Origin: Oribacterium sp. oral taxon 078 str. F0262
GTDB taxonomy: Bacteria > Bacillota > Clostridia > Lachnospirales > Lachnospiraceae
Assembly: GCF_000160135.1 (NCBI RefSeq)
Contig: NZ_GG729934.1
Span: 66,499-130,498 of the forward strand
Direction: 5' to 3'
DNA length: 64,000 nucleotides
Below, piece after piece: positions 8,644 to 61,373 of this stretch. Each line of letters begins with the position of its first letter. Position 1 is the stretch's first letter. The translations under genes and the position numbers were made by a program. The notes beneath the pieces are model-generated. The model was not told the DNA's origin, did no database searches, and worked only from the letters and a program-made list of their open reading frames with translations.

Positions 8644-8711
8644 ACAAAAGCACCTCCTGATGCGGATATTCTTGCTTGCAAGACAAAAGAGATCAGTATA
8701 TGATGATTACA

Positions 8712-8828
8712 GTGTCTAAAGTCCGTGGCCGCGCCGTGCGAGCACGGGCGCGGGAGAAGGACTTTAAGACACGCCCGGACAGGAGCAAGGAGAGGGGCGG
8801 AGCCCCACGGGAATGCGACTGTCTGGGC
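8712..8828 (+). repeat. Double hairpin element, family copy 2
   Basis: Arm one pairs GTGTCTaAAGTCC (8712-8724) with GGACTTtaAGACAC (8759-8772) around an inner GCGCC-GTGC-GA-GCAC-GGCGC hairpin. Arm two pairs GCCCGGACAG with CTGTCTGGGC (8773-8782 and 8819-8828) around GGGGC-gga-GCCCC. Its GAGCAAGGAGAG and GGAATGCGA strings match the element upstream of ftsH. It occupies most of the 268-bp gap before the aminotransferase gene. No uridine tract follows, so it is not a plain terminator. Confidence 0.7.
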
Positions 8829-8911
8829 GCATGACGGGAGGCGCGAAGCGCCTTTAAAGATCAGATCAGTGAGGGCGGCAGGAGCAGGATAAGGGAAGCA
8901 GAGGAGGCGGG

Positions 8912-43103: not shown

Positions 43104-43451
43104 GCTTTCTTCCTCTTGGGGAAAGACGGATGGATTCATGACGCCTGTGCCATAGGCGTGTGCCTTAAAAGACACTCTCGTTCGGGGCTCCACGCAGCGG
43201 TACTAAATTCACACTTCGTTACACTCGTGTTCATTAAGTACCGGCGTTCCGCACGCTTTTGCGGCATCACGCCCGTTGGCACGGAATTGTCCCGATGGAA
43301 TCCGCGTTTCCTTAGTTCACAGCACGCTGCTCCCTGTCGCCCTATATTCGCATTCACACAGGACAGAGTCCCGTTATACGCTTATAAAGGGGCGTGCCAT
43401 AAAGTCCTGTCTCCACTCTTGTGCAAGCATGTCGTGGAGACAGGACTTTTT
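43104..43451 (+). repeat. Structured intergenic repeat R1, copy 1, ending in a terminator
   Basis: About 350 bp directly after the lacZ stop recur at 46882-47228 with some half dozen differences. It can fold into several hairpins: ACGCCT-gtgccat-AGGCGT near 43140, and GGTACT...AGTACC with inner ACAC/GTGT around 43199-43240. It ends in a strong terminator, AAAGTCCTGTCTCCA (43401-43415) with TGGAGACAGGACTTT (43435-43449) and TTTTT, whose loop holds TGCAAGCA. Open frames crossing it look like chance translation. It is either a mobile repeat or a non-coding RNA. Confidence 0.7.
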
Positions 43452-43497
43452 GGCACTGGAGTCATAAAATATTAAAAAAAAATTAAGACAAAAATAC

Positions 43498-43582: not shown

Positions 43583-45049
43583 ATGACGGGGAAGAGGAGT
43601 ATTATAGCGCTTGTTTTGCTCTCTGTACTGGCGGGAATGCTGACACCGGGTTCATCTTCTGCGCTCAGCGATTCCGATGAACTCATGGAGTGGGATAAGG
43701 ACTACAGGAAGGAAGAGGAGACGGAAGAAACAGAATCCCCTATTCATGTTGTTGTTTCGGAGGAAGCCGCTGCCTCAGAGCGAAAGGACGGGGAAGATGC
43801 GGATAAAGTCGAGCTGGAAACCCGTTACTCCTGGGAAAAACCGCTGAAGAACGAGAACGTGGAGAAGCTGTTTTTGAAAAACAGCAGGAAGATCGGAGAT
43901 GAACTGAATGACTCGAGCGAGCGGACCGTGACGATCCCGGAGGGGGAAAATCAGCTGATCGATCAGTTCACAAGGACGTACTTGGACAGTTATCTGAGCA
44001 GAGAAATGCCGGATCTGGGAGTATACTACGACCTCTCCAATGAAGTCCGGAAAGAGAATCGACTTTTGATCGAAGCCTATATTTATGAACATGCGGTCTC
44101 GGGAGCTCATACGGTGGATAGCTACGATCGAGAATTTTTTATTACAAAAGTCACGCCGCTTTCCAGAGGGGTTGACGAAGTTATTTTTTATCTGGTGGAT
44201 GTTCTTCACACAGATAACGGAGACGAGGACAGCGGAACATGGTTTGTGGCGGATATAGGGCTGACAGAGGAGGGCTATAAATTCCTGAATCTGTGGATTG
44301 AATCACCGGAATTTGAAATAACACAAAACCGATGGAAGGACGACTATCTAAAGAATGGAATCTCTCCGGAAAAGGAGCAAGTCCAGAGGGATATTTGGAA
44401 TCGAGCGGAAGAGGTTCGAAATTCCGGATATGAAATTCCGCTTATGAATGATCCATACGAGTCTCCGGATAAGGCGGCCAATGATGTTTCTCTTATGAGG
44501 AGGAGAACCACAATAGCTTATGACAGGGAAACTGTAGCGAAAAAGGCAAAAAAGTACGCATATAAATACAACGATTTATTCGTCCCCCAAAATGGTTCCG
44601 GAGGAGACTGCACAAATTATGTATCCCAGTGTATGTGGCAGAGCCCCGGCTGGCCGTTCGACAGACAGGGGAAAGATAACAGCGTCAAATGGTCCTGCAA
44701 AAGGAATCATGAAGGAAAATATACTTATGAAACGGTCTCCTGGGTGGGAGTCAATGAGCTCTGGACGTATTTCCAGAAAAATGATAATCCGAAGCAGGCG
44801 GGAGATGTCTATGGAATCAGCGCTACGACGACGGGATATGATAAGTCAAATGCTCAGGTCGGGGATGTCATTCAGTTCTATAACGGGAGCTTCTGGAGGC
44901 ACTCTGTAATTATTTCTGAAATCCGAAATGGGGAGATATACTGTGCAGCGCATACTGATAATCATGCAGCATATCCCTTATCCAAGTATATGGAATATTA
45001 TCATTCCTATAGAGTCGCACATATCAATAATTATATCACATCGTACTGA
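43583..45049 (+). CDS. Secreted protein with C-terminal putative amidase domain (Amidase_6)
   Basis: A signal peptide (MTGKRSIIALVLLSVLAGML, cleavage near SSALS) leads to a 300-residue region I do not recognise. The C-terminal 170 residues match Amidase_6: TIAYDRETVAKKAKKYAYKY, the catalytic-type GSGGDCTNYVSQCMW, and a later His in SFWRHSVIISEI, giving a Cys-His pair as in NlpC/CHAP-like folds. Peptidoglycan or peptide amide hydrolysis outside the cell is the likely role. AAAGGAGG precedes the ATG. The gene is poorer in GC than the flanking backbone. Its first two thirds recur at 47525-48441. Confidence 0.8.
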   Translation: MTGKRSIIALVLLSVLAGMLTPGSSSALSDSDELMEWDKDYRKEEETEETESPIHVVVSEEAAASERKDGEDADKVELETRYSWEKPLKNENVEKLFLKNSRKIGDELNDSSERTVTIPEGENQLIDQFTRTYLDSYLSREMPDLGVYYDLSNEVRKENRLLIEAYIYEHAVSGAHTVDSYDREFFITKVTPLSRGVDEVIFYLVDVLHTDNGDEDSGTWFVADIGLTEEGYKFLNLWIESPEFEITQNRWKDDYLKNGISPEKEQVQRDIWNRAEEVRNSGYEIPLMNDPYESPDKAANDVSLMRRRTTIAYDRETVAKKAKKYAYKYNDLFVPQNGSGGDCTNYVSQCMWQSPGWPFDRQGKDNSVKWSCKRNHEGKYTYETVSWVGVNELWTYFQKNDNPKQAGDVYGISATTTGYDKSNAQVGDVIQFYNGSFWRHSVIISEIRNGEIYCAAHTDNHAAYPLSKYMEYYHSYRVAHINNYITSY

Positions 45050-46881: not shown

Positions 46882-47228
46882 GCTTTCTTCCTCTTGGGGA
46901 AAGACGGATGGATTCATGACGCCTGTGCCATAGGCGTGTGCCTTAAAAGACACTCTCGTTCGGGGCTCCACGCAGCGGTACTAAATTCACACTTCGTTAC
47001 ACTCGTGTTCATTAAGTACCGGCGTTCCGCACGCTTTTTCGGCATCACGCCCGTTGGCACGGAATTGTCTCGATGGAATCCGTGTTTCCTTAGTTCACAG
47101 CATGCTGCTCCCTGCTGCCCTATATTCGCATTCACACAGGACAGAGTCCCGTTATACGCTTATAAAGGGGCGTGCCATAAAGTCCTGTCTCCACTCTTGT
47201 GCAAGCATGTCGTGGAGACAGGACTTTT
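46882..47228 (+). repeat. Structured intergenic repeat R1, copy 2
   Basis: The second copy follows the lacZ remnant exactly as copy 1 follows lacZ (offset 3778). Differences are few: one G to T, C to T changes, and TGTCGCC versus TGCTGCC. The terminator stem (from 47179) and its TGCAAGCA loop are identical; only the T run is shorter. Low divergence shows recent duplication. Confidence 0.75.
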
Positions 47229-47524
47229 GGCACTGAAATCATAAAATATAAAAAAGTTAGGGTCAAAATGCTTGTATAAGAAGCTATTCCAAGACAATAT
47301 TAAAGTCATCTCCTGTATATTAAGGGGACGACACACGGGAGCCCCTGCTTCTGCCGACGGAAGCTGTAATCAAATAAAATTACTTGATCCGGGGGCGGGA
47401 AAAGGATAAAGTGACAGTAGATTTCATCGGGGCTGTAAATGAAAGAGCAGAGCAGTCGAAAATTGTCTGCTGTAAGACGGATTTAGACAGGAATACAGCA
47501 GACCTTCCGGAAGGAGAAAAGCAA

Positions 47525-52364: not shown

Positions 52365-53699
52365 TCAGCCCAGAGAATGGATGAACTGTCTCGCTGTCCT
52401 CCCCGTGCGCCCGCCCCTTTGCACCGACCAGGCCCTCGCCTTTTGGAGAAGCTCCTCTCTTTCCATCTTAAGCCCCTCCCTCCCCGCGAGAAGGAGCACA
52501 ATCCTCTGATAGTCTTCGAAGCTCGGTTCCTGAAAGAGGATATTCAGGCCGAAGCGGTCAGAGAGGGAGAGCTTTTCCTCCATGGTATCGGAGTGGTGCA
52601 GCTCCTCCTGATCCACCATATCCTTCCGGTCCGAGAGAAACTCCCGCACGAGATGTCTCCTGTTGGAGGTCGCATAGATCAGGATATTGTCGGGTCTCGC
52701 CTCGATTCCGCCCTCGATCAAAGACTTCAGGTACTTATATTCTGTCTCTGACTCCTCGAAGGAGAGATCATCCAGAAAGAGAAGGAAGCGGTAATTCCGA
52801 TTCCGCAGGATTTCGTTCAGCCAGAGGAGCTCCCGGAGCTGCTGCTTATAGATCTCAATCAGCCGAAGCCCCTTTTCCTGAAAATGATGGAGCAACGCCC
52901 GGATCATGGTGGATTTCCCGGTTCCGGCATCCCCGTAGAGGAGGACATTGTTGCAGGGCCTTCCCTGAAGGAAGGCCTCCGTGTTCTCACAGAGCAGCTT
53001 CTTCTGCGCCTCATAGCCCAGGAGTGAATCGAAATCCACCGGGTCCAGCGCCTTGATCGGGACGAGCTCCCTCTCCTTTTCCGTGCCCTCGATGCGGAAA
53101 GCTCGGTGGAGCGCGAAGCTCCCGCTTCCAAAGCGGCGGTAGAATTCCGAGATCGCACGCTGTATGCCCAGGGGATTTCCCGCTCTCATCAGGGAGCGCT
53201 CGAGCGCCGAGATCGTGAGGGATGCCTCTCGGAGGCTGTGGACAGTCCTTTTTCCCGCTGCCTGATAGTTTCGGAGGAGGGAGAAGGAGGTAGAGCCCAG
53301 AAACTGATCCAGCGGGGAGAGATCGTAATGCAGAAGCTCATAGAGCGCGGAGCAGTCCTGGAGCGAGAGAAGGGAGGCGGAGCCCTCCGGAATCCCGAGA
53401 CCTTCACTGAGGAGTGAGAGGGGATTTTCATCCGCCGCGATCAAATAGGCGATATAGGAGGCGTAAAGATCCCCCTCAAAGCCGTAGTCCGCCGAAAGAC
53501 GGAGGATTTCGTGGAGAGTGACGTGAAGATCCTGCCGGATATCATCGTGGTCATAGCGGTCCACCGTTCCGTCCTCATTTTCCATCTCATAATCATAGCC
53601 CGGCTCCGAGAGCGCTTCTAAGGCTGCGGAAAGTCCCATGAGCACCGGATCGACGGAAAGTCTGCTGAAAAAGATCAGTCTGGATAAAAGAGCCTTCAT
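52365..53699 (-). CDS. AAA+ ATPase of the DUF815 family
   Basis: The C-terminal half is an AAA+ module: LLGYEAQKKLLCENTEAFLQ, Walker A LLYGDAGTGKSTMIRALLHH near residue 253, Walker B FLLFLDDLSFEESETEYKYL, and sensor IYATSNRRHLVREF. This matches DUF815, predicted ATPases of unknown role related to chaperone-like AAA proteins. The N-terminal 200 residues are helical and poorly conserved. The gene converges on the polymerase with 21 bp between stops, and its upstream region abuts the ilv control region. Confidence 0.87.
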   Translation of the reverse strand: MKALLSRLIFFSRLSVDPVLMGLSAALEALSEPGYDYEMENEDGTVDRYDHDDIRQDLHVTLHEILRLSADYGFEGDLYASYIAYLIAADENPLSLLSEGLGIPEGSASLLSLQDCSALYELLHYDLSPLDQFLGSTSFSLLRNYQAAGKRTVHSLREASLTISALERSLMRAGNPLGIQRAISEFYRRFGSGSFALHRAFRIEGTEKERELVPIKALDPVDFDSLLGYEAQKKLLCENTEAFLQGRPCNNVLLYGDAGTGKSTMIRALLHHFQEKGLRLIEIYKQQLRELLWLNEILRNRNYRFLLFLDDLSFEESETEYKYLKSLIEGGIEARPDNILIYATSNRRHLVREFLSDRKDMVDQEELHHSDTMEEKLSLSDRFGLNILFQEPSFEDYQRIVLLLAGREGLKMEREELLQKARAWSVQRGGRTGRTARQFIHSLG

Positions 53700-53784
53700 A
53701 GTAATATAGTAATTCAGGGCGAAGCCCTGTCCTTTCTTTTTTGTCCTTTCTTTTTATTGAATTTTAGCGTGGGAGAGGCGGCTG

Positions 53785-53855
53785 TGTCAAAGGCTTCCAT
53801 TTATAAAGCGGCTATGGCTTCCATAGCGGGAAGATATGGGAGAGCCGCCTTGACA
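53785..53855. repeat. Nested inverted repeat overlapping the ilv -35 element
   Basis: TGTCAA-a-GGC (53785-53794) pairs with GCCTTGACA (53847-53855). Inside, CTTCC pairs with GGAAG, and GCTATGG-ctt-CCATAGC forms the tip. The right arm includes the TTGACA -35 hexamer, so besides forming hairpins it could be an operator for a repressor of the ilv promoter. Confidence 0.5.
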
Positions 53856-53878
53856 AGGGCTTTTTGCTGTGGGATAAT
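53850..53878 (+). promoter_or_regulatory. Strong promoter of the ilv operon
   Basis: TTGACA (53850-53855), exactly 17 bp, GATAAT (53873-53878). The predicted start lies near 53885, only 15 or so bases before the leader-peptide start codon. Confidence 0.85.
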
Positions 53879-53900
53879 GCAGAAATCACGGAGGGAGAGT

Positions 53901-54011
53901 ATGCGGGATATGAGGGATTCGACATATTTTTGGAGCGTCACGATGATTCTTTCCGGCATTATTGTAGCTTGCAATGATGCTGTTTCGCGTGACGCTATCC
54001 GGGGGAATTAA
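53901..54011 (+). CDS. ilv leader peptide (attenuator peptide)
   Basis: A 36-codon frame preceded by GGAGGGAG. It encodes MRDMRDSTYFWSVTMILSGI, continuing IVACNDAVSRDAIRGN. Codons 16, 17 and 20-22 are Ile, Leu, Ile, Ile, Val, with Val28 and Ile33 later. Its stop lies 15 bp before a strong terminator, and ilvB follows. The 3' codons (53993-54004) can pair with the terminator's 5' arm. A ribosome slowed at the Ile/Val codons would leave that pairing free; one reaching the stop would cover it. It could alternatively be a tiny membrane protein, since the centre is hydrophobic. Confidence 0.65.
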   Translation: MRDMRDSTYFWSVTMILSGIIVACNDAVSRDAIRGN

Positions 54012-54058
54012 GATAGAGGGATCTTCGGCCCCGCAGCGAAACGCTGCGGGGCCGTTTT
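53993..54058 (+). promoter_or_regulatory. Antiterminator/terminator switch of the ilv attenuator
   Basis: Terminator: CGGCCCCGCAGCG (54026-54038), loop AAA, CGCTGCGGGGCCG (54042-54054), then TTTT. Antiterminator: CGCT (53993-53996) with AGCG (54035-54038), and CGGGG (54000-54004) with CCCCG (54029-54033), nine pairs around a 3x1 internal loop that would consume the terminator's 5' arm. The two structures are mutually exclusive. The region from here to ilvB contains another hairpin (GCAAAGCG 54100-54107 with CGCTTTGC 54118-54125). Confidence 0.7.
54026..54058 (+). terminator. Intrinsic terminator between leader peptide and ilvB
   Basis: A perfect 13-bp GC-rich stem with a 3-nt loop followed by TTTT. 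It stands alone as one of the strongest terminators in the window, and its position 127 bp before ilvB only makes sense if it is conditional or if ilvB has a further promoter, which I do not see. Confidence 0.92.
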
Positions 54059-54184
54059 AGTGTTCAGACTGCTGGGACCTGCAAAGCAAGGGAAGTATTG
54101 CAAAGCGAAAAACCGCCCGCTTTGCGGGGAATGCAAATTGAAATTTTCAGAGTGTTCAGGGAGAAGTTTTCGGGAGAGGATAAG

Positions 54185-55897
54185 ATGAGATTGAGCGGAG
54201 CCGGGATTTTGATTGAGGAGCTGATTTCACAGGGGGTCGATACGATTTTCGGATATCCGGGAGGCGCGGTCCTGACTATTTACGATGAGCTGTATCGCTC
54301 CAGGGACCGGATCCGCCATGTCATCACCGCCCACGAGCAGGGTGCCTGCCACGCGGCGGACGGCTATGCGAGAGCCAGCGGGAAGACGGGGGTTGTGCTC
54401 GCAACAAGCGGGCCGGGGGCGACGAATCTCGTGACAGGGATCGCAAATGCCTATCTGGATTCGGTTCCCCTTCTGGCGATCACGGGAAATGTCTCTGTGG
54501 ATGCGCTCGGGCGGGACAGCTTCCAGGAGGTCGATATCGTGGGCATCACACAGCCGGTCGTGAAGCACAGCTTCATGGTGAGGGATGTGACGGAGCTGGA
54601 GCAGACGATCAAGGAAGCCTTTCTGATCGCGAATTCGGGGAGGAAGGGCCCGGTTCTGATCGACATCCCGAAGGATGTTCAGACGGGAAGCTGCGAGTAT
54701 GGCATCGCGGTCGTCCCCAGAATGCCCGAAAAGCCGAAGCTTCCCTATGATAAAGAGGCGGTCCTCGCGGCGCTCTCCGGGGCGGAGAGGCCCTTCCTCT
54801 ACTGCGGAGGCGGCGTGATCTCCTCCGGGGCGGAGGAGGAGATCCTCTCCCTCTCGAAGCGGATCGATGCTCCGATCGGCTTAAGCATGATGGGGCGAAG
54901 CGCGGTGCCGGACTCCTACAGCTATAATCTCGGTATGTGCGGCATGCACGGAAATTTCGCGGCCTCCAGGGCGCAGTCCGAGTGCGATCTCCTGCTCGCG
55001 GCCGGTGTCCGCTTCTCCGATCGGGCCACCGGAGATATCTCGGAATATACGAAGAACCGAACGATCATCCACATTGACATCGACAAGGCGGAGATCGGGA
55101 AGAATGTGCGCCCCGGTCTCTCCCTCCAGGGAGATGTGAAGGAGATCCTTCAGGACCTTCTCCGGGAGCTCCCGGAGAAAAAGCATCCGGATTGGAGGAG
55201 GAGGGTCGAAGGCTTTCGGGAGTGGCATCCGCGGGAGAGGAAGGGGGAGTTCTGCCCGGAAAATATCATCCGGGCGCTCCGGAGGCACACAGAGGATGAG
55301 ACCATCATCGCGACCGATGTGGGACAGCATCAGATCTGGACGATGCAGTACTATGCCTTCGAAAGGCCGAGGACACTGCTCAGTTCCGGGGGACTCGGGA
55401 CGATGGGCTATGGACTCGGCGCGGCGGTCGGAGGCTGCATCGCCTCCGGGGGAAGGAGGACCGTTCTCATCACCTCGGAGGGGTCCTTTGGCATGAATCT
55501 GAACGAGCTGTGCACCGTCGTCTCCCAGAAGCTTCCGATCACGGTCCTCATCTTGGACAATCAGGTGCTCGGCATGGTGCGGCAGTGGCAGGGGATGTTC
55601 TACGGGAAGCGCTATTCCGAGACCACGCTGGATCAGAGGCGGACGGATTTTGCGGCTCTGGCCCGGGCCTTCGGCGCGAAGGGATACTCCGTATCCGATC
55701 TGGAGGGTCTGGAGGAGGCGCTTAAGGAGATGGACGGAAATGAGGAGGATGCGATCCTGATCGACTGCCATATCGACAGGGACGAGCAGGTCCTTCCCAT
55801 GATTCCGCCGGGAAAGTCGATCCGGGATATCATCCTGCCTCTGCCCGCCGGGGAGGAGGCGCCCTTGGAAGAAGCTCTTTCGGAGGAGGAAAAATGA
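54185..55897 (+). CDS. ilvB: Acetolactate synthase large subunit, copy 1
   Basis: A ThDP- and FAD-dependent enzyme condensing pyruvate with pyruvate or 2-oxobutyrate. The catalytic Glu lies in TAHEQGACHAADGYARASG, and ATSGPGATNLVTGIANAYLD and GLGTMGYGLGAAVGGCIASG are conserved. Trp468 in GMVRQWQ is the residue linked to 2-oxobutyrate preference. The ThDP/Mg motif, normally GDGS, reads Ser431-Glu432-Gly433-Ser434, with the partner Asn459 in place, so the metal-binding Asp is Glu. The start at 54185 follows GGGAGAGG. It overlaps ilvN by 4 bp. Confidence 0.95.
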   Translation: MRLSGAGILIEELISQGVDTIFGYPGGAVLTIYDELYRSRDRIRHVITAHEQGACHAADGYARASGKTGVVLATSGPGATNLVTGIANAYLDSVPLLAITGNVSVDALGRDSFQEVDIVGITQPVVKHSFMVRDVTELEQTIKEAFLIANSGRKGPVLIDIPKDVQTGSCEYGIAVVPRMPEKPKLPYDKEAVLAALSGAERPFLYCGGGVISSGAEEEILSLSKRIDAPIGLSMMGRSAVPDSYSYNLGMCGMHGNFAASRAQSECDLLLAAGVRFSDRATGDISEYTKNRTIIHIDIDKAEIGKNVRPGLSLQGDVKEILQDLLRELPEKKHPDWRRRVEGFREWHPRERKGEFCPENIIRALRRHTEDETIIATDVGQHQIWTMQYYAFERPRTLLSSGGLGTMGYGLGAAVGGCIASGGRRTVLITSEGSFGMNLNELCTVVSQKLPITVLILDNQVLGMVRQWQGMFYGKRYSETTLDQRRTDFAALARAFGAKGYSVSDLEGLEEALKEMDGNEEDAILIDCHIDRDEQVLPMIPPGKSIRDIILPLPAGEEAPLEEALSEEEK

Positions 55898-56145
55898 ACC
55901 GTTTCACCATCGATCTCTGGGTCAACAACCGCTTTGGCGTCCTGAACCGGATCACCGGGCTCTATGCAAAGCGCGGCTACAATATCGAATCGATCCACGC
56001 GGGCCCCACCGAGGTGAGTGGAGTTACGAAGATCGAGATCGTATCCACGGGGGACGATTATATGAGGACGCAGGTCCTCTCTCAGCTGGAAAAGCTCTAT
56101 GATGTCAGAAAGGTGGAGCTTTCCTCCGAGGAAGCGATCCGGTAA
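55894..56145 (+). CDS. ilvN: Acetolactate synthase small subunit, ACT-domain only
   Basis: MNRFTIDLWVNNRFGVLNRI and the next block TGLYAKRGYNIESIHAGPTE form one ACT domain, the regulatory fold that binds valine and activates the large subunit. At 83 residues it lacks the C-terminal domain found in the second small subunit at 60393, and resembles the short IlvN/IlvM type. The ATG is inside the ilvB stop (ATGA), so subunits are made together. Confidence 0.9.
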   Translation: MNRFTIDLWVNNRFGVLNRITGLYAKRGYNIESIHAGPTEVSGVTKIEIVSTGDDYMRTQVLSQLEKLYDVRKVELSSEEAIR

Positions 56146-56170
56146 GGTCCTGCCGCCGCGTTAGCCCTGC

Positions 56171-57494
<1,324 letters not shown>

Positions 57495-57539
57495 GACAGG
57501 AGAGAGGGCAGAATGGAGACAGGAGCCGGAGGAGAGAGG

Positions 57540-58739
57540 ATGGAGCTGACACTGGACAGAGTATATCAGGCGGCGCATGTGCTGAAGCCGCTCGTAAAGA
57601 GGACAGAGCTGGTACGGGCGGCCGGGATCGAAACAGACTGCGAGCTCTATCTGAAGACGGAGAATCTGCAAAACACCGGCTCCTTTAAGATCCGCGGCGC
57701 CTGCTACCGGATCTCGACTCTGACGGAGGAGGAGAGAAGGAGGGGCGTCGTAGCCTGCTCGGCCGGAAATCACGCGCAGGGCGTCGCCCTCGCCGCTTCC
57801 CGCTCCGGCACGAAGTCGACCATCTTCCTCCCGGCGGTCGCGCCAATATCCAAGGTGGAGGCGACGAGAGCCTACGGGGCGGAGGTGAGGATGATCGACG
57901 GCGTCTACGATGACGCCTATGAGGCGGCGCTCCGCTATCAGAAGGAGAGCGGAGCCGTCTTTATTCACCCCTTCAACGATATCGATGTAATCGCGGGGCA
58001 GGGGACGATCGGGATGGAGATCTGCGAGCAGCTCATGGATGCGGAGGCCGTCGTCGTCCCGGTCGGAGGAGGCGGCCTCATCTCCGGTGTCTCCTTCGTC
58101 GTAAAGAAGCTGAATCCCGGCTGCAAAGTCTATGGAGTACAGGCCTCCGGTGCGGCCTCCATGCTGAAATCCCGGAGGGATCACGCGCTGGAGAGCCTCA
58201 GCGAGGTCCACACCTTTGCGGATGGGATCGCAGTGAAGAAGCCGGGCTCCGTGACCTTCGACATGGTGGAAGAATACGTGGATGAGCTGGTCACTGTGAC
58301 GGATGATGAGACAGCGGCGGCGATCCTCACGCTCATGGAGCGGCAGAAGGTGGTCTCCGAGGGCGCGGGCGCGGTCTCCGTCGCGGCGGTGCTCTTTCAT
58401 AAGGTCCCGGTGAAGGGGAAGAAGACGGTCTGCATCATCTCCGGAGGAAATATCGATGTGAATATCCTCTCCCGCGTCATCACAAGGGGACTGATGAAGA
58501 CCGGGCGGAAGGCGAGCCTCACGCTGGAGCTTCTGGATAAGCCGGGGCAGCTCGAGGAGGTTTCCCGCATCATCGCGGAGAAGGGCGCCAATGTGACGAG
58601 GGTGGACCACAACAGCACGGCGGAGGACAGCGATATCAACGGCTGCTATCTGACTATGCAGATGGAGACGAGGGATTTCCGCCATGTGGAGGAGATCCGG
58701 AGAGAATTTTCGGAGAGGGGCTTTCGCCTCGTGCAGTAG
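57540..58739 (+). CDS. ilvA: Threonine ammonia-lyase with ACT domain
   Basis: Deaminates threonine to 2-oxobutyrate, the precursor for isoleucine. The PLP lysine is Lys50 in NTGSFKIRGACYR, SAGNHAQGVALAA binds substrate, and VPVGGGGLISGVSF holds the cofactor phosphate. From about residue 325 a single ACT domain follows (LTLELLDKPGQLEEVSRIIA), as in the roughly 400-residue TdcB/IlvA group of Firmicutes. GGAGGAG favours ATG 57540; 57513 is in frame. Its place between ilvC and the second ilvB indicates an isoleucine role. Confidence 0.95.
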   Translation: MELTLDRVYQAAHVLKPLVKRTELVRAAGIETDCELYLKTENLQNTGSFKIRGACYRISTLTEEERRRGVVACSAGNHAQGVALAASRSGTKSTIFLPAVAPISKVEATRAYGAEVRMIDGVYDDAYEAALRYQKESGAVFIHPFNDIDVIAGQGTIGMEICEQLMDAEAVVVPVGGGGLISGVSFVVKKLNPGCKVYGVQASGAASMLKSRRDHALESLSEVHTFADGIAVKKPGSVTFDMVEEYVDELVTVTDDETAAAILTLMERQKVVSEGAGAVSVAAVLFHKVPVKGKKTVCIISGGNIDVNILSRVITRGLMKTGRKASLTLELLDKPGQLEEVSRIIAEKGANVTRVDHNSTAEDSDINGCYLTMQMETRDFRHVEEIRREFSERGFRLVQ

Positions 58740-58758
58740 GCAGCGGAGAGGAGAGTTT

Positions 58759-60396
58759 ATGACGGGCGCTGATGCGATGGTGAAATGCCTGGAGCTCGAA
58801 AGAGTGGAATATGTCTTCGGCTATCCGGGAGTGGCGATCTGTCCCTTCTACGACAGTATCCTGAAGACGGGGATCCGGACGGTGCTGGTTCGAACGGAGC
58901 AGAGCGCGGCGCATGCGGCGAACGGCTATGCCAGAATCAGCGGGAGGGCCGGGGTCGCGGCGGTGACGAGCGGTCCGGGCGCGACCAATGTCATAACGGG
59001 GATCGCCACGGCATTTGCGGACAGCATCCCGATCGTTGTGATCACGGGACAGGTGGACAGCCAGCTCCTGGGCTCCGATGTCTTTCAGGAGGCCGACATC
59101 TCCGGGGCCTGCGAGTCCTTTGTGAAGTACAGCTATATCGTCCGGAATGCGGAGGAGATTCCGAGGATCATGAGGGAGGCCTTCTACCTCGCAAATTCCG
59201 GGCGGAAGGGGCCGGTCCTCATCGATGTCCCGGTCGATGTCCAGAAGGCGGAGCTAAAGAGCTTCTCCTATCCGAGAGAGCATAGGATGCGGACCTATCG
59301 CCCGACCGTCGAGGGAAACATGGTCCAGATCAAAAAGGTCTTCCATCGCCTGAGGGAGGCGAAGCGCCCGATCCTCTGTGTCGGCGGCGGGATCTTCCTC
59401 GCCGGGGCAGCTCAGAAGCTCCGGGCCTTTGCGAAGAAGCAGGGCTTGCCGGTAGTCTCCACGATGATGGGGATCGGCGCGATGGAGAGCTCGGATCCGC
59501 TCTATTTCGGCATGGTCGGGAACAACGGAAAAAGCTGCGGGAACCGCGCCATGAACGAGGCGGATATGATCATCATGGCAGGAGCCAGGGCGGCGGACCG
59601 CTCGATCAGCCAGCCGGGCCTCATCACGGAGAATAAAACCTTCGTCCACATCGACGTGGATCCCGCGGAGATCGGGAAAAATGCCGGGCCGGAGATCCCT
59701 CTCGTCGGGGATCTCTCCAGTGTCTTCGATAAATTCCTGGAGCAGGAGGGAGGGGAGGGCTATGGAGACTGGCTCAGCCTGCTCTCGGATTACCGGAGGG
59801 AGGAAGAGGAGAGGGAGGAGGAGCGCCTTCAGAAAAGGCTCCGCCTCTCCGATCTCCCCTCTCCGGAGCTTCTTCTCCGGGAGCTCTCTCTGAAAATGCA
59901 GGAGGACGGGATCTATATCGCAGATGTCGGGCAGAACCAGCTTTGGTCCTGCGGAAGCTATAGGATGAGAGGGGGGAGATTCCTGACCTCCGGCGGCATG
60001 GGGACGATGGGCTATTCCATCCCGGCCTCCATCGGCGCAAAGCTCGCAGCCCCGAAAAGACAGGTCGTCTCGGTGATCGGAGACGGGGGCTTTCAGATGT
60101 GCATGATGGAGCTTGCGACACTTCGGCAGTACGGCATCGCGGTGAAGATTTTGGTCTTGAAGAATCAGACACTCGGACTTGTGCGGCAGTACCAGCATTT
60201 CGTCCTGGGGGACCGCTATTCCATGACGGAGCTCGGATCGGATCCGGAGCTTTCGAAGCTCTCGGAGGCCTATCATCTCCGCTACCTTTCTATTCGAAAA
60301 AACGAAGAGATTTCCGAGAAGCTCTCGGACTTTCTCAGGGGAGAGGACTCCGCTCTCCTGGAATGTGTGATTGATCCGGATGAGGTGGCCCGATGA
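58759..60396 (+). CDS. ilvB2: Acetolactate synthase large subunit, copy 2 (divergent)
   Basis: A ThDP enzyme like the copy at 54185 but clearly divergent. VRTEQSAAHAANGYARISG has the catalytic Glu, TSGPGATNVITGIATAFADS is kept, and the metal motif is canonical (GDGGF at 441-445, Asn469). The position equivalent to the substrate-selecting Trp is Tyr478 (GLVRQYQ), which in better-known enzymes lowers preference for 2-oxobutyrate. It may mainly make acetolactate for valine and leucine, or serve another 2-oxo acid. GGAGAGGAGAG precedes ATG 58759. It overlaps its small subunit by 4 bp. Confidence 0.88.
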   Translation: MTGADAMVKCLELERVEYVFGYPGVAICPFYDSILKTGIRTVLVRTEQSAAHAANGYARISGRAGVAAVTSGPGATNVITGIATAFADSIPIVVITGQVDSQLLGSDVFQEADISGACESFVKYSYIVRNAEEIPRIMREAFYLANSGRKGPVLIDVPVDVQKAELKSFSYPREHRMRTYRPTVEGNMVQIKKVFHRLREAKRPILCVGGGIFLAGAAQKLRAFAKKQGLPVVSTMMGIGAMESSDPLYFGMVGNNGKSCGNRAMNEADMIIMAGARAADRSISQPGLITENKTFVHIDVDPAEIGKNAGPEIPLVGDLSSVFDKFLEQEGGEGYGDWLSLLSDYRREEEEREEERLQKRLRLSDLPSPELLLRELSLKMQEDGIYIADVGQNQLWSCGSYRMRGGRFLTSGGMGTMGYSIPASIGAKLAAPKRQVVSVIGDGGFQMCMMELATLRQYGIAVKILVLKNQTLGLVRQYQHFVLGDRYSMTELGSDPELSKLSEAYHLRYLSIRKNEEISEKLSDFLRGEDSALLECVIDPDEVAR

Positions 60397-60881
60397 AAAG
60401 GATATATTCTGTACTGGTGGAGAACCGCGCCGGAGTGCTCTCCAGAGTCGCGGGGCTTTTCTGGAGACGCTGCTTTAACATTGATTCCCTCGCAGTCGGA
60501 GAGACGGAGGACCGCACGGTCTCCAATATGGTCATCGTCTCGAGCGGGGAGGAGCGGACGCTCGAGCAGATCGAGAAGCAGCTGAACAAAAAGATCGATA
60601 TCATCAAGGTCCGGACCTTCTCGGAGAGCGAGGGGATCTGCCGGGAGCTTCTCCTGGTAAAGATCCGCTACAACCGGGAAAACCGGAAGGATATCATGGA
60701 AAACTGCGAGATCATGGGAGCCCGGATCGTGGATCTCGGGAAGCAGGCGATGACGATCCAGATCTGCGACACACCGGAGCGGATAGAGATGTTTCTCGAC
60801 ACCTTAAAGACCGTGAGCATCGTGGAGATCGCCCGCACCGGGACACTGGCCATGCTGAAGATCCGGGAGCAGCGCCGCTAA
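60393..60881 (+). CDS. ilvN2: Acetolactate synthase small subunit, full-length type
   Basis: A 162-residue regulatory subunit: an N-terminal ACT domain (YSVLVENRAGVLSRVAGLFW, then NIDSLAVGETEDRTVSNMVI) and the C-terminal ALS_ss domain (ELLLVKIRYNRENRKDIMEN, ending TVSIVEIARTGTLAMLKIRE). This is the IlvH-like architecture and differs from the 83-residue subunit at 55894. So the locus holds two large/small pairs of different type. It ends the ilv run; a new promoter follows for ridA. Confidence 0.93.
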   Translation: MKRIYSVLVENRAGVLSRVAGLFWRRCFNIDSLAVGETEDRTVSNMVIVSSGEERTLEQIEKQLNKKIDIIKVRTFSESEGICRELLLVKIRYNRENRKDIMENCEIMGARIVDLGKQAMTIQICDTPERIEMFLDTLKTVSIVEIARTGTLAMLKIREQRR

Positions 60882-61001: not shown

Positions 61002-61373
61002 ATGAAGCAAGTATCGACAGAGAAGGCGCCGGCGGCGATCGGCCCCTATTCCCAGGGCTTTGTGAGCGGAAATCTGGTTTTTTGTTCCGGACAGATTCCG
61101 GTCGTCCCGGAGAGCGGGGAAGTGGCGGGCCCCGACATCGCTTCCCAAGCGGAGCAGAGCTGCAAGAATGTGAAGGCTGTCATCGAGGCCGCGGGCTCCG
61201 ATATCGGAAAGGTTTTAAAGACCACCTGCTTCCTCGCGGACATGAACGACTTCGCCGTCTTCAACGGAGTCTATGAGAAGTACTTCAGCTCGAAGCCTGC
61301 CCGTTCCTGCGTGGCGGTAAAGGCCCTCCCGAAGGGAGTGCTCTGCGAGATCGAGGCCATTGCCGAGCTGTAG
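61002..61373 (+). CDS. ridA: RidA family reactive enamine/imine deaminase
   Basis: RidA hydrolyses 2-aminocrotonate and 2-aminoacrylate, reactive intermediates released by PLP dehydratases such as IlvA. The 123-residue trimeric fold is clear: APAAIGPYSQGFVSGNLVFC, SGQIPVVPESG, VLKTTCFLADMNDFAVFN, and the catalytic arginine in KPARSCVAVKALPKG with the terminal CEIEAIAEL. AAGGAG precedes the ATG. Its place behind ilvA is biochemically sensible. Confidence 0.96.
   Translation: MKQVSTEKAPAAIGPYSQGFVSGNLVFCSGQIPVVPESGEVAGPDIASQAEQSCKNVKAVIEAAGSDIGKVLKTTCFLADMNDFAVFNGVYEKYFSSKPARSCVAVKALPKGVLCEIEAIAEL

Follow-up and report, generated by a model that had tools for sequence, protein, structure and literature searches.

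The window analysed here is a stretch of 64,000 nucleotides (nt) of the Oribacterium sp. oral taxon 078 str. F0262 genome (contig NZ_GG729934.1, positions 66,499 to 130,498), and our subject is the leader that precedes its ilvB operon. The operon (54185-60881, forward strand) contains two acetolactate synthase large/small pairs together with ilvC and ilvA. Its first gene is ilvB, encoding the large subunit (54185-55897, TIGR00118), followed by a short ilvN-like small-subunit gene of 83 amino acids (55894-56145, TIGR00119), ilvC for ketol-acid reductoisomerase (56481-57494, TIGR00465), ilvA for threonine ammonia-lyase (57513-58739, TIGR01127), and a second large (58756-60396, TIGR00118) and small subunit (60393-60881, TIGR00119); a Rid-family gene comes next, at 61002. 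Comparison with related genomes indicates, with a probability that we put at about 0.88, that this operon is under classical ribosome-mediated transcription attenuation by the charging of isoleucine and valine (and perhaps leucine) tRNA.

The leader begins with a promoter on the forward strand (53850-53878) in which TTGACA (53850-53855) and GATAAT (53873-53878) are separated by a 17-nt spacer, a match to consensus at 11 of 12 positions with a TG ahead of the -10 element; the pattern TTGAC...TGGGAT[AG]AT also stands ahead of the leaders at loci L042, L043, L006 and L209. The Shine-Dalgarno sequence GGAGGGAG (53890-53897) precedes a frame of 36 codons (53901-54011, ATG at 53901, TAA at 54009-54011) encoding the leader peptide MRDMRDSTYFWSVTMILSGIIVACNDAVSRDAIRGN, which has homologous peptides in relatives. 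Although the frame stays open 5' as far as a TTG at 53757, we chose the ATG at 53901 as the start because it is located after the promoter and is preceded by the Shine-Dalgarno sequence. The control codons are Ile16 Leu17 (53946-53951) and Ile20 Ile21 Val22 (53958-53966). Between the leader frame and ilvB lies an intrinsic terminator (54026-54058) of 13 perfect base pairs (bp; 54026-54054) with loop AAA and TTTT, whose stem begins 14 nt past the leader stop codon and has an energy of -29.4 kcal/mol. All of these elements had been placed correctly by an earlier annotation made from the DNA letters alone (hereafter the sequence-only reading), and a simple consensus scan found no second ilvB promoter between 54054 and 54184.

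Alternative helices can be drawn from this leader. Strand 1, the outer protector arm AGCGTCACG (53934-53942), pairs perfectly over 9 bp with CGTGACGCT (53988-53996), and the protector encloses an inner hairpin of 11 bp (53956-53980) formed by GCATTATTGTA (53956-53966) and TGCAATGATGC (53970-53980), with the Ile20 Ile21 Val22 codons in its 5' arm. Strand 2 (53987-54004) is at once the 3' arm of the protector and the 5' strand of an antiterminator, whose 3' strand, strand 3 (54029-54044), takes in the terminator's 5' arm and loop and the first part of its 3' arm, so that antiterminator and terminator exclude one another. The antiterminator comprises 13 pairs, GCGU-GA-CGCU-AUC-CGGGG (53987-54004) with CCCCG-C-AGCG-AA-ACGC (54029-54044). 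The sequence-only reading had the pairs of 53993-53996 and 54000-54004 with 54029-54038 exactly right and drew the helix too short, for GCGU at 53987-53990 adds four pairs with ACGC at 54041-54044; it also missed the protector stem and the inner hairpin. Protector, hairpin and longer antiterminator complete a 1:2 / 2:3 / 3:4 attenuator. The 1:2 pairing is present in the window, and among relatives the conserved part of it is the inner hairpin, the outer arm lying elsewhere. ATT makes up only 16 of the 146 isoleucine codons across the six operon genes, but all three control isoleucine codons, and Val22 is encoded by GTA, which accounts for 13 of the 163 valine codons in these genes. Such choices may stem from selection on the hairpin or from descent from A+T-richer kin, and we do not take them as evidence of rare-codon sensing.

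The leader folds far more stably than its composition predicts: the minimum free energy of 53882-54062 is -74.8 kcal/mol, whereas shuffled versions average -53.5 (z = -6.1) and none of 200 is as low. When strand 1 is taken away and the transcript ends at 54046, the 13-pair antiterminator, its loop holding a hairpin, is the fold of lowest energy (-23.9 kcal/mol). We then represented the ribosome by footprints of 29-33 nt, a size of our own choosing, masked as unpaired, in folds that permit pairing across the ribosome. A ribosome at codons 16-17 or 20-22, with the transcript again ending at 54046, yields the antiterminator; a ribosome placed on the stop codon yields the terminator; for the ribosome at codons 20-22, strand 1 pairs in part with 53976-53981 and strand 2 stays free. 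For leader translation, ribosome stalling, the amino acids that count and read-through, we infer the following course. Transcription would begin a few bases past 53878, and a ribosome translating the 36-codon leader would trail the polymerase. If isoleucine or valine (or leucine) tRNA were uncharged, the ribosome would stall at codons 16-22 and cover strand 1, the inner hairpin or both, whereupon strand 2 (53987-54004) could pair with strand 3 (54029-54044), the terminator would be blocked and ilvB would be transcribed. If charged tRNA were plentiful, the ribosome would reach the stop codon at 54009 and cover strand 2, the 3:4 terminator would form and transcription would end. Without translation strands 1 and 2 would pair, and the terminator would be expected to form too.

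Relatives' leaders were first located by reading upstream of ilvB and then aligned in 16 rows (15 distinct), comprising 13 Oribacterium genomes, window included, and three others. A covariance model built from all 16 rows (R1) matches 13 of the 17 genus genomes at E values of at most 7.2e-15, necessarily so, as the same 13 are rows of the model. A second model (R2), which leaves out the window's leader and rests on the remaining 15, finds as its sole match in the window, up to an E value of 10, positions 53894-54065 (68.1 bits, E 6.7e-11 by a rough calibration). The sequence-only reading had named absence of the peptide or of the antiterminator pairing in relatives as something that would refute it, and the leader is kept in those 13 genus genomes; by contrast, G007, which has a divergent IlvB (51% identity), and two named relatives that are close by IlvB, L039 (C. 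vitabionis) and L041 (C. aminophilum), have no leader upstream. Of the other genus genomes, G006 has only an IlvB match of 38% identity, and at E 1e-100 none was found in G001 or G002. In a family-wide Lachnospiraceae sample, at E 0.001 with stricter filters, R1 matches 10 of 397 genomes and 8 of 334 genera: the window, one further genus member, three model rows and five new loci (L251-L254 and L256), all five of which precede ilvB. Among R1 matches with E values above 0.1, the one inspected (G010:C8) showed no leader peptide. By homology, then, leaders of this kind occur before ilvB in Oribacterium and seven related Lachnospiraceae genera. The relatives' peptides MNNYSVILAVIIILVNIIVISNNAYLCKAFQEK, MNALVALTVIIILVNIIVLDSSDCLCNASLGR, MNITMILSVIMILVNIIVVDSNGCLRHAFQGR (with a GTG start) and MMTSLVLLAVVIRIIVSIIVVCENAYLRYAEPEVI resemble the ...TMILSGIIVACNDAVSRDAIRGN of the window, and an Ile/Leu/Val-rich stretch is retained in the homologous leaders read before ilvB. 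The leader of L117 is truncated by a contig end, and its missing part lies at the end of another contig (L260).

This conservation bears on the simplest alternative, that a terminator of the upstream unit and an accidental small frame have come together by chance. A search of 265 frames in the window does turn up two more small frames (at 44943 and 34726) that are rich in Ile/Leu/Val and have a terminator. However, homologues recur across the genus, and a mechanical filter (an ATG frame with a Shine-Dalgarno sequence, 6 or more Ile/Leu/Val per 10 codons, and a terminator no more than 90 nt away) recovers 21 of 80 ilvB upstream regions, seven of them from Oribacterium, and 0 of 80 reverse complements; these 80 loci are the ones that best match this IlvB and not an even sample, and L044 carries the leader yet fails the filter. 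Conservation in the main refutes the chance explanation, which we regard as scarcely credible.

The peptide and both stems proposed by the sequence-only reading are conserved in the aligned relatives, and the stems change in a compensatory manner. Across the 15 distinct leaders, 95.3% of 300 cells in the inner hairpin and terminator are paired (shuffled, 89.4%), and 8 of the 20 pairs have changed on both sides, a number reached by 2 of 500 shuffles; six of these pairs belong to the terminator, the other two to the inner hairpin. The covariation score for the two stems is 0.348 against 0.222 when shuffled, and no shuffle of 500 reaches the observed value; controls slid out of register are 33-54% paired, and at the ten outer pairs of the terminator every cell (100%) is paired. 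The inner hairpin of G003 is out of register in the alignment and was counted as unfavourable; G003 folds a hairpin of its own. For the antiterminator we scored a fixed register of 10 pairs over the 10 distinct strand-2/strand-3 rows among the 16, and found 87 of 100 cells paired, equalled by 12 of 20000 reassignments of strand 3 to strand 2 (8 of 720 for six representatives). Examples of strand 2 and strand 3 are GUAAAGCU with AGCUUUAC, GCGUAACGC with GCGUUACGC, CGUUGCAC with GUGCAAUG and, with one mismatch, GCGUUAUGC with GCACAACGC. Duplex energies agree: over 12 representatives the cognate sum is -197.8 against a reassigned mean of -152.6, with none of 20000 reassignments as good, and among the 720 possible assignments of six representatives the true one ranks first. 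At further loci scored in free register (6 of 7, the seventh, L256, being viewed by eye) both pairings are found in all six. Computation directly shows the elements and the alternative ways in which they pair, their position before ilvB, and the fact that relatives conserve them with compensatory change. Peptide, hairpin, antiterminator and terminator persist while their sequences change together, which supports the ribosome-mediated attenuator proposed by the sequence-only reading.

Several observations weigh against this interpretation. The window itself is mismatched at 2 of the 10 antiterminator core positions, and when the 12 rows are taken one at a time, no more than 2 have their cognate strand 3 as the strictly best partner, because some strands (that of G005 above all) suit several partners and near kin are interchangeable. 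The rows of the alignment are related, so that the counts given above overstate their independence. With strand 1 masked in the full transcript, the terminator is more stable than the antiterminator; the switch must therefore be kinetic, with the choice made during transcription. Known attenuators likewise choose their fold during transcription. The window has five control codons in codons 16-22, against up to nine Ile/Leu/Val in 10 codons among relatives, its peptide being about six codons short in the control stretch by eye, and in the L037/L206 group the Shine-Dalgarno-like GAAAGG stands 13-14 nt ahead of the ATG, a far spacing. Finally, codon substitution in the Streptomyces coelicolor ilvB leader had no effect, according to PMC1262725. 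This last result would suit a leader that is translated and a terminator that works with no control by stalling at Ile or Val codons, either as mere coupling to ilvB or as a constitutive terminator, with a repressor such as CodY regulating the operon; the Staphylococcus aureus and Listeria papers cited below have CodY at those ilv operons as well. We consider this arrangement unlikely, as strand 2/strand 3 pairing survives sequence changes, which a constitutive terminator would not require, and the homologous leaders preserve their Ile/Leu/Val-rich stretch.

Distribution within the family weighs on the same side, for most of the sampled Lachnospiraceae have no such leader, probably because ilvB there comes after ilvD. 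We read two further sets of family loci before ilvB, L116-L144 (29) and L145-L204 (60). In the former, three (L116-L118) belong to the leader group and the other 26 have no leader frame followed by a terminator; in the latter, no leader frame followed by a terminator was seen at the 59 readable loci, one being too short. Of the 85 loci without a leader, 80 have an IlvD motif upstream of ilvB on the same strand, and ilvB is therefore probably within an ilvD-ilvB unit there. L040, also close by IlvB, has the terminator and lacks the Ile/Val cluster. For leucine synthesis, a search of the 17 genus genomes for leuA (TIGR00973) gave no match at E 1e-80.

Additional leaders of the same homology, or of similar design, were seen in passing. 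In G003 not only ilvB but also ilvD is preceded by a homologous peptide leader, the one for ilvD (L258, G003:C38), with a frame ...SVIIILINVIAVVCNNVSFALPDSRS, standing about 0.6 kb ahead of the gene. An orphan homologue at L259 (G001:C37:56915-57107) has the peptide and the hairpin as well as antiterminator and terminator; no ilv gene was seen within 3.4 kb downstream, in the genome noted above for its lack of an IlvB match. Candidate leader frames with terminators, of seemingly unrelated sequence and in some cases weak, precede ilvB at L051, at L076/L079/L115 and at L102-L114; the frames of L076, L079, L115, L051, L102, L105-L107, L109 and L112 are Ile- or Leu/Val-rich.

The sequence-only reading had set the leader against the habit of Firmicutes of regulating branched-chain genes by T-boxes. 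The leader has no T-box (RF00230 has no match anywhere in the 64-kb window), yet the host does use T-boxes. Three are found in its genome at E 0.001 (C10:380363, C11:586821 and C12:676204), all outside the window: one (L001, locus C10:378863-382101) precedes a PanS/BASS-type transporter gene and ilvD, one (L002) a TrpX-like substrate-binding protein gene, and one (L003), below the cut-off, trpB. The specifier of L001 reads GAA-A-AUC-A, hence AUC, isoleucine; applying the rule for reading specifiers given in PMC5794164, we regard this T-box as probably isoleucine-specific. G005 has a T-box (L214) before a similar transporter, with AUC then C. One genome thus seems to use a T-box (PanS-like gene and ilvD) and a peptide leader (ilvB) for one pathway. 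T-boxes detected by Rfam also lie ahead of ilvB, on its strand and no more than about 500 nt away, at 17 of the 80 sampled loci, none of them among the 21 that pass the leader filter; two more fall outside this count, L092 being on the opposite strand and L088 distant. Such neighbours lend some colour to the idea that our leader is itself a metabolite- or tRNA-binding riboswitch of unknown class whose open frame is incidental. We think this very improbable, given that the leader matches no Rfam family at gathering score and that what is conserved is a coding stretch with alternative helices.

The placement of the outer protector arm varies among the leaders. In single minimum-energy folds of thirteen leaders up to strand 2 (the window and twelve relatives), roughly 10 of the 12 relatives have their outer 5' arm at the start codon, at the Shine-Dalgarno-like sequence or just past the latter (one such arm is GACGCAAA, paired with UUUGCGU), whereas in the window it lies at codons 12-14. 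Because these are single minimum-energy folds and the reading of them is our own, we treat this placement as a lead and not as a result. It allows a bolder and distinctly tentative proposal, which we hold less probable than not, that the leaders form a lineage-specific RNA family outside Rfam whose strand 2 protector makes use of the site where translation of the leader begins and would sense ribosome loading as well as stalling, working beside the probable isoleucine T-box for the PanS-like gene and ilvD.

Elsewhere around the leader, the interval between terminator and ilvB contains a segment (54080-54121) with an 88% match to C11:185848-185889 of the same genome, and the terminator-to-ilvB distance in relatives ranges from about 25 nt (L042, L043) to about 480 nt (L209). 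Divergent from ilvB is an ATPase-like gene (52365-53699, reverse strand) with no NCBIfam match at 1e-10. L040 and L054 have, upstream of ilvB and codirectional with it, the end of a frame whose C-terminus is similar to this gene, and the difference in orientation is perhaps due to a local inversion. The Ile-rich frame at 44943 was considered as a second leader and rejected, as it is out of frame inside a gene. Four Clostridiales-1 RNAs (RF01699) score above gathering in the window, at 1804-1943 and 8704-8863 on the forward strand and at 43305-43464 and 47083-47241 on the reverse.

The type of attenuator described here is already known. Enterobacterial ilvGMEDA and ilvBN leaders encode a peptide with Ile/Val/Leu codons and form a 1:2 protector, a 2:3 antiterminator and a 3:4 terminator. 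The window leader resembles them in its Ile/Val/Leu leader peptide and in the same three pairings before an ilv operon; unlike them, it has its Ile-Ile-Val codons in a hairpin of their own nested in the protector, and its strand 3 spans the terminator loop. Escherichia coli and Salmonella typhimurium are named for ilv attenuators in PMC5794164, whose own subject, the S. aureus ilv-leu attenuator, rests on selected mutants and reporter assays. The S. aureus leader is like ours in combining a peptide rich in branched-chain amino acids (BCAAs) with a terminator before an ilv operon, in a Firmicute and with no T-box, and differs in being Leu-weighted and in preceding ilvD. Rli60 of Listeria monocytogenes, an attenuator before ilvD tested with start-codon, ribosome-binding-site and hairpin mutants (PMC5864092), is likewise a ribosome-mediated attenuator of BCAA genes in a Firmicute, but belongs to the Bacilli, has a peptide of 13 amino acids and precedes ilvD. 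Actinobacterial ilvB leaders, described in PMC1262725, share an Ile/Val/Leu-rich peptide and a terminator before ilvB, whereas their candidate frames overlap the terminator hairpins. Histidine (his) attenuators predicted by comparison in Eubacteriales and Erysipelotrichales (PMC9413887) are comparable as leader-peptide predictions made by comparative means in Firmicutes other than Bacilli, and differ in concerning histidine genes and other families; a Leptospira ilvB motif is treated in PMC8632094. Enterobacterial, S. aureus and Listeria ilv leaders together with the actinobacterial predictions are thus the precedents. Searches of an open-access library, judged by title and abstract, gave no report of leader-peptide ilv attenuation in Lachnospiraceae, and we claim no priority.

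Taken together, these results provide comparative support for leader-peptide ilv attenuation in one lineage of Lachnospiraceae, where, among 80 loci chosen by IlvB similarity, a peptide leader with terminator (21) is about as common as a T-box (17). If the tentative proposal made above were true, one amino acid would be sensed by two different RNA devices within one pathway of the same cell. Two questions can be put to this genus: why a single cell would pair a T-box for ilvD with a peptide leader for ilvB, and by what course sensors of this kind replace each other.

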